Source of the DNA: Candidatus Gastranaerophilales bacterium
GTDB lineage: Bacteria > Cyanobacteriota > Vampirovibrionia > Gastranaerophilales > Gastranaerophilaceae
Length of the DNA stretch: 32,506 nucleotides
NCBI GenBank assembly: GCA_944324165.1
Contig: CALUVG010000021.1
Coordinates: 1-32,506, forward strand
Direction: 5' to 3'
This document shows, piece by piece, positions 1 to 32,506 of this stretch. Within the stretch, counting starts at the first letter, position 1. Each line of letters starts with the position of its first letter. A program made the translations under genes and the position numbers. The notes beneath the pieces were generated by a model. It had not been told where the DNA came from. It saw nothing but the letters and a program-made list of their open reading frames with translations, and did no database searches.

Positions 1-5
1 CTCAT
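1..5 (-). CDS. Start of an unknown leftward gene, cut by the window edge
   Basis: Only the ATG and two further bases lie inside the window. The call rests on a perfect AGGAGG ribosome site at 10-15, four bases upstream of the ATG at 3-5. The gene sits directly downstream of the 28-residue mini-gene on the same strand, so the two may share a transcript. The product cannot be known from here. Confidence 0.5.
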
Positions 6-40
6 TGTTCCTCCTTTTTTTATTATATTCGAAAACTTGC

Positions 41-127
41 CTACTGACCGATTACGTTTTTAGGGGGACAATTCAAGAAACCCCAACCTACAGTAAATTT
101 TTCTTTCGTTGCACAATTTGCAGCCAT
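41..127 (-). CDS. VGW-motif mini-gene, 28 residues (locus 1)
   Basis: A tiny minus-strand reading frame begins at ATG 127 behind an AGAGGAG ribosome site (133-139) and ends at TAG 41-43. The peptide starts MAANCATKEKFTVGWGF. Its first 17 codons align without gaps to the first 17 codons of the small gene at 23840-24085 (8 of 17 residues identical, including M-A, A6, K10 and VGW-F). The upstream leader is also shared (35 of 39 bases identical, 152-190 versus 24106-24144), so this is unlikely to be a chance frame. It has one VGW unit where the longer relative has three, and may be a truncated copy. No function is known. The run GTAGGTTGGGGTTTC that encodes VGWGF recurs as DNA in the longer gene. 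Confidence 0.55.
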   Translation of the reverse strand: MAANCATKEKFTVGWGFLNCPPKNVIGQ

Positions 128-151
128 CCAAACTCCTCTAAGTTTTGTCCT

Positions 152-193
152 CATACTTCTATTATTACATATTGCTCAGAATTTTTCAAGTCC
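152..193 (-). repeat. Dispersed leader repeat, copy 1
   Basis: On the minus strand the 39 bases at 152-190 match 24106-24144 at 35 positions. The 15 bases at 179-193 (GGACTTGAAAAATTC) recur with one change on the plus strand at 23654-23668. The repeat carries the promoter of the mini-gene and ends about 70 bases from the tspO start. Confidence 0.65.
161..189 (-). promoter_or_regulatory. Promoter of VGW locus 1
   Basis: On the minus strand, TTGAAA (184-189), a 17-base spacer and AATAAT (161-166) preceded by TG (extended -10) form a good sigma-70-type promoter. The block is nearly identical to the one before the second VGW gene at 24115-24143, which supports it as functional rather than chance. 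Confidence 0.6.
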
Positions 194-23626: not shown

Positions 23627-23651
23627 TGAAATATAATTGAGTATGCTTAAT

Positions 23652-23768
23652 AAGGACTTAAAAAATTCAGGACAATAATGGAAGAGCAGGTCGGCTTTAC
23701 CAAGCCGACAATTAAAGGGTAGGAACGCTGGAAAGGCACTATGGAGTTAATGAAGTCGTTAAGTCCTT
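23652..23768. repeat. 117-bp element with 10-bp perfect terminal inverted repeats
   Basis: AAGGACTTAA (23652-23661) and TTAAGTCCTT (23759-23768) are perfect inverted repeats at the two ends. Inside is a perfect 8-bp hairpin with a 4-base loop (GTCGGCTT, TACC, AAGCCGAC; 23690-23709). The left end, GGACTTAAAAAATTC, is shared with the leader of VGW locus 1. The shape fits a very small non-autonomous mobile element or a structured RNA. Sequence match to a known family was not recognised. Confidence 0.55.
23678..23722 (+). CDS. Possible 14-residue VGF-motif peptide (locus 3)
   Basis: ATG 23678 opens a 14-codon frame, MEEQVGFTKPTIKG, ending in TAG. It lies inside the inverted-repeat element, after a leader that matches the start of the other two VGW leaders. 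Its V-G-F-x-x-P arrangement parallels VGWGFHPNK in the longer gene. The coding run is also the perfect hairpin, so the match could reflect the DNA repeat rather than a translated peptide. No clear ribosome site is seen. Confidence 0.25.
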   Translation: MEEQVGFTKPTIKG

Positions 23769-23839
23769 TACATTTTTTAGTCCATGTAAAACATATAAGT
23801 TTTTGAATAATGTACCTGAAAGCCTTGTGGGGCTTGAAG

Positions 23840-24085
23840 TTAGATGCCCCCCTCCCCAGAAAATGCACTATTCATGCGGGTTTTAGCCTCATTCAAAGCA
23901 GAAGTATTTTTGTTGGGATGGAAACCCCAACCTACAGCATTGGAACCTTGTGGCACAACAACTTTTTTATTATTGGGCAAGTATGCACAACCGACTGTAT
24001 GAGCAGGCTGAACAAATTCACCATTATAACGGTCAAATTCCCAACCGACTTTATGTTTTTGTTCTTCTGCCAGCTTTTCCGCCAT
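23840..24085 (-). CDS. VGW-motif small protein, 81 residues (locus 2)
   Basis: This soluble 81-residue protein has three spaced units: HKVGWEFDRYNGEF, HTVGCAYLPNNKKV and NAVGWGFHPNKNTS, with a Ser/Gly tail ending GEGGI. Its first 17 codons align without gaps to the 28-residue gene near the left edge, and its leader is nearly identical. The ATG at 24085 has GAGGGA upstream; a TTG one codon earlier is less likely. The DNA behind the last unit (GTTGGG, 8-base loop, CCCAAC) is an inverted repeat, like the hairpin of the third locus. No known function or domain. It sits between fabZ and rsmI, where many genomes have lpxA. Terminators separate it from fabZ. Confidence 0.65.
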   Translation of the reverse strand: MAEKLAEEQKHKVGWEFDRYNGEFVQPAHTVGCAYLPNNKKVVVPQGSNAVGWGFHPNKNTSALNEAKTRMNSAFSGEGGI

Positions 24086-24105
24086 CAAAATCCCTCGTAT
24101 ATATC

Positions 24106-24144
24106 CATACCTCCATTATTACATATCTCTCAGAATTTTTCAAG
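24106..24144 (-). repeat. Dispersed leader repeat, copy 2, with promoter
   Basis: Matches 152-190 at 35 of 39 bases on the minus strand. It holds TTGAAA (24138-24143), a 17-base spacer and AATAAT (24115-24120) with TG before it, the promoter of the 81-residue gene. Confidence 0.65.
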
Positions 24145-24153
24145 TGCTAAATT

Positions 24154-24186
24154 AAAAACAGGCAATATCATAATATCGCCTGTTTC
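24154..24186 (-). terminator. Terminator after fabZ
   Basis: On the minus strand GAAACAGGCGATAT pairs with ATATTGCCTGTTTT (one mismatch) around TATG and runs into TTTTTAATTT. Confidence 0.8.
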
Positions 24187-24211
24187 ATATTTAAAACTAC
24201 CTAACTTAAAA

Positions 24212-24661
24212 CTACTTAAGTGCAAAAGTCATATCCGCCTCTACGCACATTTTACCGTCAACTGTACCTATGCCGTGAGCCTTGCAAATCGGACCTTTTA
24301 CCTTTGTTAATTCAACATGCATTTCAAATCTGTCACCGGGTCTTACTATATTTTTGAAACGAACATTGTCAACTCCAGCATAAAGAGTCAATTTACCCTC
24401 AAATTCAGGCATTGTCATCAATATCGGAGCTGAGCATTGTGCCATTGCCTCTAATTGCAATACACCAGGCATTATAGGATTGTTAGGGAAATGCCCCTGA
24501 AAAAACTCCTCATTCATAGTTAAATTTTTATATCCGTTGGCATACTTTCCCGGTACACATTCTGTAATTCTGTCTACAAGCAAAAACGGATAACGATGTG
24601 GTATCATTTTCATAATTTCAGTTGTGTCAAAGCTTAATACTTTTGTCTCTTCTGTCATCAT
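24212..24661 (-). CDS. fabZ: 3-hydroxyacyl-[acyl-carrier-protein] dehydratase FabZ
   Basis: The 149-residue hot-dog enzyme has IPHRYPFLLVDRI, the catalytic His in QGHFPNNPIMPG, the catalytic Glu in LQLEAMAQ, and VRFKNIVRPGD. It dehydrates beta-hydroxyacyl-ACP in fatty acid synthesis and competes with LpxA/LpxD for hydroxyacyl-ACP, hence the common pairing with lpx genes. AAGGAG precedes two adjacent ATGs; the second (24658) has the better spacing. It follows lpxC by 12 bases. A 14-base tandem duplication lies at and after its stop. Confidence 0.96.
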   Translation of the reverse strand: MMTEETKVLSFDTTEIMKMIPHRYPFLLVDRITECVPGKYANGYKNLTMNEEFFQGHFPNNPIMPGVLQLEAMAQCSAPILMTMPEFEGKLTLYAGVDNVRFKNIVRPGDRFEMHVELTKVKGPICKAHGIGTVDGKMCVEADMTFALK

Positions 24662-30579: not shown

Positions 30580-32506
30580 ATACTCCATATCTTGTTGCTG
30601 CATAATCTCTGCGTTTTTTGTTTTTGCGTTGAATTTCTTTGAAATGGTCAGAAAGTTCAATTTTATATGTTGATTTTTGCTGCTCTTCCTTGCCAGAAGA
30701 ATCCTGATTGCCTGTTTGAGATTGTGCCATAGCCATGCCAACACCAAGTGCGCTTTTGCCTGCGCCTTTTAATGTTTCTTTAATTGCAGTTTTTGATTGT
30801 TCTTTCATTGTAGAAACAGTACCGGCAGCTGCAGCTTTTTGTATTGCTTGCTGCTGTGCCTTTTCTCCTGTACCAGTAACTGCAGCTTTTGCAGCTTCTT
30901 TAGCAGCTTTGTAAGTTGCGGCTCTGCTTTTAGAAGTAGCAATATTTTTGCTCATTTCCTGAAAACCTTTAGTAGCCTGTTTTGTTGCGCTTACTGCTGA
31001 TGCACCTGCCATAATTGCACTCGTAGCACTCATCAAAGCTCCCATTAAGTTACCTTGAGCAGCATAAGTTGCAGCTTTTGTTACACCTGCTGCGGCAACA
31101 CCGTAATTACCTACTGCTTCTGCAGCATGACCTATCGGAGACATTACAGCACCAACGGCAGGAATCCAAGGCGGTAAAATAACTTTCATTAAAATATCGC
31201 CTGTTGTACCAACAATCATACCGGTCATTGCAACTGCTGATGAGATACTTTCAATTTTACCGGCAACTTCCAATACTTTTTCACTTCTTGTTTGATCTTC
31301 CTGTTTGGCTTTTTGTTCTTGTTTTACCGCTGTATTATATTTTTTTGTAGTAGTATTCATTCTTCTAAGAATAGTATTTGAACTATTTTGAGTATTTACT
31401 AATTTATCAGAATAGATACTAATAATGTTTGCTTTTTCTCCAATTTGTTTATTCAGTGTTTCAATTTGTTCCTGATTAGAACTTGAAGAATTTGATGTTA
31501 CAGGAGCTGCAGCACCTGCCATTACGCTATCCATAACATTGAAACTATTATTAGTTGCCTGTTGAGCTGTATTATTTGCAGCATTTGTATCATTTCCTAT
31601 AACACCTGAATTTTCAGCAGATGCAGCCTCTTCTTCCGTAATTCTGTCTACTTCCATTTGAAGAGTTTCAAATGCCATTATTTCTTCTTCTATTTGTTTT
31701 TGAGTTTCAGCGACTTCTTTTTCATTCTTTTGCAATTCTTTCTGATCTTTTTTCATATCTTTTTGAAGTGCTTTAGAATCTTTTTGTAATTCTTTATCAG
31801 ACTTTTGAGCTTCTTTGTCTGTTTTTTCCATGTCTTTAGTATTTTCTTCGGTTGTTTTAGTATCTGCATCAACTTCGTCGGCATCTTTGTCTACATCATT
31901 TGCAGCTTGCTTACCATTTTTGGCATCCACTTCATTAGTGCTTGAAGTTTCTGATTTTGACCCTGTTTTTTGTTCAGATTTATTTTCATCTGATGCAGAT
32001 GCTGATCTTACTCTGCCGGCAGCATTAGTATTAGCTGAAACTTCAGGATTATCTTCTTCTGTTTCAGATGTATAAGCTGCTTTTACTTTAGATGTTGCAG
32101 CAAGGCTTTCTGCACTAACTTCATCACTTGAAGATGCAAGCGTTTCAGCCTCTTCTACTTCTTTTTCTTCTTCATTTGCAGTTTCGGTAGCTGCCGGAGC
32201 AACTTCGTCTGTTTCTTCGACTGCTGCAGGCTCTGCTGTTGCTTGAGCGGTTTCGTCTGTTTCTTCGACTGCTGCAGGCTCTGCTGGAACTTGAGCAACT
32301 TCGTCTGTTTCTTCGACTGCTGCAGGCTCTGCTGGAACTTGAGCAGTTTCGTCTGTTTCTTCGGCTGCTGCAGGTTCTGCTGGAACTTGAGCAGTTTCGT
32401 CTGTTTCTTCGACTGCTGCAGGCTCTGCTGGAGCTTGAGCAGTTTCGTCTGTTTCTTCGGCTGCTGCAGGCTCTGCTGGAACTTGAGCAGTTTCGTCTGT
32501 TTCTTC
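30578..32506 (-). CDS. Large coiled-coil, Ala-rich protein with tandem repeats; N-terminus beyond the window
   Basis: The frame is open from the right edge to TAA 30578, giving 642 visible residues. The part nearest the edge is six and a bit copies of a 16-residue acidic repeat (EETDETAQVPAEPAAx). A Ser/Glu-rich stretch, then a long Lys/Glu/Gln coiled coil (KEAQKSDKELQKDSKALQKD and on) follow. After a Gln/Asn-rich linker there is a second coiled coil, a hydrophobic Gly/Ala region (VAMTGMIVGTTGDILMKVI, IPAVGAVMSPIGHAAEAVG, MGALMSATSAIMAGASAV), an Ala/Lys-rich helix and a basic end. No family is recognised. The coiled-coil plus hydrophobic hairpin layout is like that of secreted pore or translocator proteins, but this is only a shape likeness. 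The true start is not in the window. Confidence 0.8.
   Translation of the reverse strand, partial: EETDETAQVPAEPAAAEETDETAQAPAEPAAVEETDETAQVPAEPAAAEETDETAQVPAEPAAVEETDEVAQVPAEPAAVEETDETAQATAEPAAVEETDEVAPAATETANEEEKEVEEAETLASSSDEVSAESLAATSKVKAAYTSETEEDNPEVSANTNAAGRVRSASASDENKSEQKTGSKSETSSTNEVDAKNGKQAANDVDKDADEVDADTKTTEENTKDMEKTDKEAQKSDKELQKDSKALQKDMKKDQKELQKNEKEVAETQKQIEEEIMAFETLQMEVDRITEEEAASAENSGVIGNDTNAANNTAQQATNNSFNVMDSVMAGAAAPVTSNSSSSNQEQIETLNKQIGEKANIISIYSDKLVNTQNSSNTILRRMNTTTKKYNTAVKQEQKAKQEDQTRSEKVLEVAGKIESISSAVAMTGMIVGTTGDILMKVILPPWIPAVGAVMSPIGHAAEAVGNYGVAAAGVTKAATYAAQGNLMGALMSATSAIMAGASAVSATKQATKGFQEMSKNIATSKSRAATYKAAKEAAKAAVTGTGEKAQQQAIQKAAAAGTVSTMKEQSKTAIKETLKGAGKSALGVGMAMAQSQTGNQDSSGKEEQQKSTYKIELSDHFKEIQRKNKKRRDYAATRYGV
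32206..32506 (-). repeat. 48-bp in-frame tandem repeat
   Basis: Copies begin at 32206, 32254, 32302, 32350, 32398, 32446 and 32494, exactly 48 bases apart, the last cut by the edge. Copies differ at a few bases, giving V/A and T/V changes. The repeat encodes a Pro/Ala/Glu-rich, probably disordered stalk and could change copy number by slippage. Confidence 0.95.

Follow-up and report, generated by a model that had tools for sequence, protein, structure and literature searches.

The window, the whole stretch of 32,506 nucleotides that was analysed, is contig 21 of a Candidatus Gastranaerophilales genome of 2.05 Mb in 55 contigs (G000). Two copies of a leader unit were found on its minus strand, each with a promoter, a ribosome site and a short open reading frame (ORF), together with one end of an insertion sequence (IS) and a remnant of a further unit in the opposite orientation. 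The features are as follows.

1..75, minus strand: left end of the IS (TGAATTGTCCCCCTAAAAACG...GGAGGAACAATGAG), matching a contig end of congener G003 at 97% identity
41..127, minus strand: copy 1 leader ORF, interrupted, with MAANCATKEKFTVGWGF and then 11 IS-encoded residues
76..91, minus strand: left half of the copy 1 REP-like palindrome (GTAGGTTGGGGTTTCT), cut in the loop
135..138, minus strand: copy 1 ribosome site GAGG, read from the sequence
161..189, minus strand: copy 1 promoter TTGAAA-17-TGnAATAAT, from the leader-pattern search
23639..24212: rearrangement breakpoint interval, with its flanks on different contigs in 5 of 5 congeners
23650..23709, plus strand: remnant of the opposite-orientation unit, with a decayed leader AAGGACTTAAAAAATTCAGGACAATAATGG and a REP-like GTCGGCTTTACCAAGCCGAC
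23840..24085, minus strand: copy 2 leader ORF, intact, 81 residues with three VGW/VGC segments
23847..23857, minus strand: copy 2 interrupted G tract GGGGAGGGGGG
23912..23935, minus strand: copy 2 REP-like palindrome GTAGGTTGGGGTTTCCATCCCAAC (VGWGFHPN)
23972..23995, minus strand: copy 2 REP-like palindrome GTCGGTTGTGCATACTTGCCCAAT (VGCAYLPN)
24091..24096, minus strand: copy 2 ribosome site GAGGGA, read from the sequence
24115..24143, minus strand: copy 2 promoter TTGAAA-17-TGnAATAAT, from the leader-pattern search

An earlier sequence-only reading had taken the two copies as members of an amplified or mobile small-gene family, and its description of them was reproduced: the leaders are alike (152-194 versus 24106-24148, 88% identity over 43 bases), the common promoter TTGAAA-17-TGnAATAAT was found at minus-strand positions 189-161 and 24143-24115, respectively, and each leader is followed by a ribosome site and a short gene beginning with MA. 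No Rfam family was matched in the window, and the search of phage and plasmid sequences gave no match. A 48-base tandem repeat was observed at 32112-32506, continuing past the contig end.

The same reading had regarded the 28-residue product of copy 1 as a short member of the family, which was not confirmed, as the terminal repeat of the IS begins after VGWGF and the gene is an interrupted one. After GTAGGTTGGGGTTTCT the window runs on as TGAATTGTCCCCC..., which is 97% identical to G003 contig ends, and the contig stops five bases into the first IS gene. The final four bases of the half-palindrome at 76..91 (minus strand), TTCT, are the target duplication. The opposite IS end was found as an inverted match, with the flank TTCTACCCCAAC, at the end of contig C39, and the joining of the window and C39 flanks restores an intact palindrome with a 4-base duplication; the 28-residue product is thus a leader ORF cut by the IS. 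Judged from these sequences, the ends of the two contigs are likely to flank one and the same insertion. Related IS ends in REP-like loops were detected by BLAST in G003, G004, G005 and G001, and one further G003 IS end sits in other, non-REP sequence. Insertion into a palindrome with a short target duplication was thus found, with REP-like loops as the target at most of the sites, and REP sequences are known as IS targets (PMC1525189).

In copy 2, the interrupted tract GGGGAGGGGGG occupies the position of the 9-15 unbroken G's of most copies and has a stop codon directly after it. The REP-like GTCGGCTTTACCAAGCCGAC of the neighbouring remnant is of the same type as the repeats flanking a RAYT gene in congener G004. 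Since each of the five congeners has the two flanks of copy 2 on separate contigs, copy 2 marks a rearrangement.

For the genome as a whole, a 29-base leader pattern (at most 3 mismatches) gave 22 matches and the reversed pattern gave 0, in agreement with the proposal of a non-random repeat. Among the relatives, matches to this pattern were found only in congener G001 (6 matches), with none in the 37 other relatives searched. A protein profile of the leader matched 49 times in the genome and 10 times in G001, with 0 internal stops, and after the removal of duplicates 36 distinct leader starts were counted in the genome. Several contigs start or stop within a leader copy. The ribosome site and ATG are retained in nearly all copies, so that an amplified family with promoter, ribosome site and protein start in common is borne out; further copies exist, and their frame is not freely broken.

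The reading frame was analysed from the ATG to the G tract in 19 copies, which were picked from the DNA-pattern hits blind to frame. The leader frame contained 0 stops in 988 codons, and the other two frames contained 53 and 81, respectively. The stop-creating share of random substitutions was 4%, at which rate about 19 stops would be expected among the 485 leader differences. The pN/pS ratio of the leader was 0.63 for nearest neighbours and 0.81 for all pairs, the substitutions were spread almost equally across the three codon positions, and the differences in length were whole modules with the frame retained. Comparison of the leader peptides with Pfam and NCBIfam gave nothing credible. An open frame with near-free change of the peptide may reflect selection for translation and not for a given peptide.

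The VGW segments were found to be DNA repeats as well as peptide motifs. Read as codons, a REP-like palindrome, GTAG-GTTGGGG-loop-CCCCAAC, gives exactly VGW(G/A)(F/Y)xPN, and GTAGGTTGGGGTTTCTACCCCAAC translates as V-G-W-G-F-Y-P-N; the earlier suggestion that the VGW codons and a GTnGG-type DNA repeat are one thing is supported. An unpaired GTAG-like head is followed by a short palindrome (GTAGGTTGGGGTTTCNACCCCAAC and variants), as in the GTAG REP family of Di Nocera and colleagues, for which REPs within genes have also been reported (PMC3733652). Each stem pair is retained in 24-27 of 29 distinct palindrome sequences, including a G-C to C-G exchange. With at most 2 mismatches, the palindrome was found 20 times in the genome, 26 times in G041 and 16 times in G016 (reversed control, 0), and it is present in 12 of the 47 genera searched. 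It lies on both sides of a RAYT gene in G041 (identified by NF047646, 130 bits) and on the downstream side in G049, and a variant palindrome flanks the RAYT gene of congener G004. The source genome gave no PF01797 match to RAYT under conditions in which control genomes did match, and its REPs may be immobile or mobilised in trans. In a congener, other palindromes take the same place as the leader REPs. As a separate observation, the RAYT genes at L237 597-1130 (G041) and L236 659-1189 (G049) carry their own REP palindrome in frame as VGVETPTY, which is the REP palindrome read in the opposite direction.

The G tract consists of 9-15 G's in 29 copies, with about twelve typical, the lengths being those of assembled contigs, in which homopolymers are error-prone; in some leader copies the run is interrupted or missing. 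For the copies readable through the tract, one G-phase is closed by a stop in the first 20 nt, and the remaining two stay open, mostly for 100-300 nt. As assembled, 22 copies are in the short phase and 5 in a long one. The prepilin ATG was readable in 15 copies; in each of these, one long phase or both stop 35-103 nt short of it, and in 10 of the 15 both long phases end within 126 nt of it. The frames beyond the G-run contained 99 stops versus 154 on the reverse strand, a modest gain among copies that are related. That G slippage fuses leader and prepilin directly was considered and rejected, because a leader stop precedes the prepilin ATG in each of the three phases wherever these are readable.

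The leader was located 0.4-1.2 kb before the core motif in 14 of the 22 close prepilin genes for which 1.5 kb upstream was available, and the remaining ones mostly have an ordinary short signal region. The small gene had been proposed as the whole unit, and this part of the proposal was not supported: most testable copies of it precede prepilin-like genes as their 5' leader. These tiny genes make up the first part of a repeated, multi-copy unit, in which they form an open leader cistron (upstream ORF). About five leader copies, copy 2 included, lack a nearby downstream prepilin, and the leader can therefore occur by itself; within the window no prepilin gene was found. The interpretation from sequence was thus supported for an amplified, mobile unit with an open frame and a peptide equal to the DNA repeat, but not for the small gene as the entire unit.

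Prepilin-like matches in the whole genome amounted to 91. The linked family has a well conserved N-terminal part, with a cleavage/methylation motif (TIGR02532, 17.1 bits versus a cut-off of 16.3), and a variable C-terminal domain. Some prepilin signal regions of 40-120 residues are seemingly encoded by strings of short palindromes (L096, L099, L102, L104). In 14 aligned variable regions, the differences by codon position were 0.48/0.41/0.15, versus 0.14/0.05/0.45 at the N-terminal end of these genes. A was found in 27 of 27 variable columns and in 2 of 30 near-invariant ones, and the variable codons are NNC, with the third base fixed, at the 3' end of the gene. This NNC pattern is a putative footprint of a diversity-generating retroelement (DGR). 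Reading of the genome covered about 1.2 of the 2.05 Mb, prepilin neighbourhoods first, and neither a reverse transcriptase (by motif) nor a template (by A-rich consensus) was found in that part; the DGR assignment thus rests on the footprint.

The AlphaFold prepilin model contained a confident C-terminal domain at residues 186-344, with pLDDT mostly over 80-90. Foldseek gave weak E-values for this model, and no significant match was found in a viral structure library. A second structure alignment gave C-type-lectin-like domains at 186-344, with the Bd2740 CTD at the top (Z 8.2, rmsd 3.1, 98 aligned) and intimin, the Lcl CTD, InvE, rhodocetin and CLEC12A in the other best rows. The domain is accordingly modelled as C-type-lectin-like, a Z near 8 not being decisive by itself.

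Mobility, which had also been suggested, was supported by comparison with the congeners. At eight conserved upstream flanks in five congeners, the unit was mostly missing or a different leader was present. G000 contig 11 and contig 2 of the sister species G001 share, at 99.6% identity, a 0.7-kb stretch that starts just 5' of the -35 box and reaches into the prepilin extension. It differs in one base and in the G count, and its flanks are unrelated; the background identity of the two genomes is 80-85%. A near-identical unit between unrelated flanks indicates that movement of the leader module does not depend on the pilin body, and the 12 versus 11 G's of the two units, as read from assembled sequence, indicate that the tract changes in length. 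Beside a leader unit, 4.8 kb are 98.7% identical between L323 1332-6173 and L322 (G000 C3 and G001 C8, respectively), which against the background of about 80-85% argues for a recent exchange between species. On G004 C14, downstream of 54281 (L203), a different leader ORF (MAETAGKRFN...) with a nearby G13 tract was observed at the site where G000 has a VGW leader. The leader architecture is thus wider than the VGW peptide.

Taken together, we consider it probable that the unit is mobile and serves as a translated, possibly phase-switched leader for a family of hypervariable pilin-lectins. Its order is promoter, leader ORF, 9-15 G's, an array of short hairpins and a prepilin gene whose N-terminal extension is long. 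Slippage in the G-run would set the distance that ribosomes travel along the leader, and this travel would switch or tune the downstream prepilin by translational coupling, antitermination or hairpin melting. The effective length of the leader would be set by the G tract, and the active phase could be the long or the short one. The exact leader peptide would be of little importance, recombination or transposition would spread the modules, and RAYT-mobilised REPs, which may also draw REP-targeting IS, would be the source of the VGW segments.

Three other explanations were weighed against this one. The unit may be pure mobile DNA, with REP-like palindromes and hairpins piling up in a tolerant region 5' of prepilins, the open frame as a by-product and the G-run as a mutational curiosity. 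The occurrence of palindromes in 12 of 47 genera, their position beside RAYT in relatives, the other palindromes at the same place in a congener, and retained stems with a hardly constrained peptide are all in keeping with it, but 0 stops in 988 codons versus 53 and 81 in the neighbouring frames, with ribosome site and ATG kept in nearly all copies, make it rather unlikely. A role of RNA or DNA structure, in which the hairpins and the G-run, the latter perhaps as a G-quadruplex, would govern transcript stability or recombination between copies independently of translation, leaves that preserved frame unexplained. Such a role is also unlikely in view of the G-runs that are interrupted or missing in some copies, although the REP stems are retained, most copies have their G-run on the coding strand, leader modules undergo recombination across loci and species, and copy 2 lies at a rearrangement breakpoint.

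Conservation of frame and start, and the copies without a prepilin, would suit a leader peptide with a function of its own as a small protein (acting as chaperone or regulator, or secreted, for example), the prepilin being merely co-transcribed. This we regard as improbable, given the pN/pS of 0.63-0.81 with equally changed codon positions, the varying module make-up and length, and a peptide that matches no Pfam or NCBIfam family. With the translated, possibly switched leader as the preferred reading, a wider picture may be drawn tentatively, at somewhat less than even confidence, of layered surface variation: dozens of dispersed prepilin-lectin genes with retroelement-hypermutated tips and REP-built, poly-G-switched translated leaders, whose modules pass from locus to locus and between species independently of the pilin body. 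If true, an uncultured gut lineage would join targeted hypermutation, a hypermutable tract and module exchange within a single repeated unit, and would offer a clear example of REP palindromes retained as coding sequence, with the open frame selected and the peptide hardly so.

Among known systems, the phase-variable poly-G loci of Neisseria (PMC5953494, PMC5320596) likewise have a long in-frame G tract in a surface-protein system and a tract length that differs between otherwise near-identical copies. Unlike in those loci, the tract here is in a separate leader cistron and not in the surface gene or its promoter; the likeness consists of the tract and the length difference, and switching would be the presumed counterpart here. 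The GTAG-tagged REPs with RAYT (PMC3733652, PMC2817692) share the unpaired GTAG head, the short palindrome, dispersed copies, a RAYT gene flanked by repeats (here in relatives) and some intragenic repeats. They differ in that the repeat here is a fixed in-frame part of a whole repeated leader gene, in a host genome without a RAYT match. The Rickettsia palindromic elements, linked to REPs in PMC3733652, are also palindromic DNA in frame within proteins, whereas those described here are part of a short leader ORF and of the N-terminal extensions of prepilins. IS1397 and similar REP-targeting IS (PMC1525189) insert in a palindrome, as does the present element with its 4-base TTCT duplication; the likeness is that of insertion site and duplication, the IS here being known from its ends and not from a transposase gene. 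In the literature searched, no paper was found that links Gastranaerophilales or Melainabacteria with phase variation or DGRs, and a large DGR survey mentions neither these two groups nor pilins. The DGR variable proteins with a C-type lectin fold (PMC6328139, PMC5006420, PMC8144416) are alike in their hypervariable NNC codons and C-terminal C-type-lectin-like domain, and the present family is unlike them in the fusion to a prepilin N-terminus, in the number of some 25 related genes in one genome, and in the leader unit that most of these genes carry.
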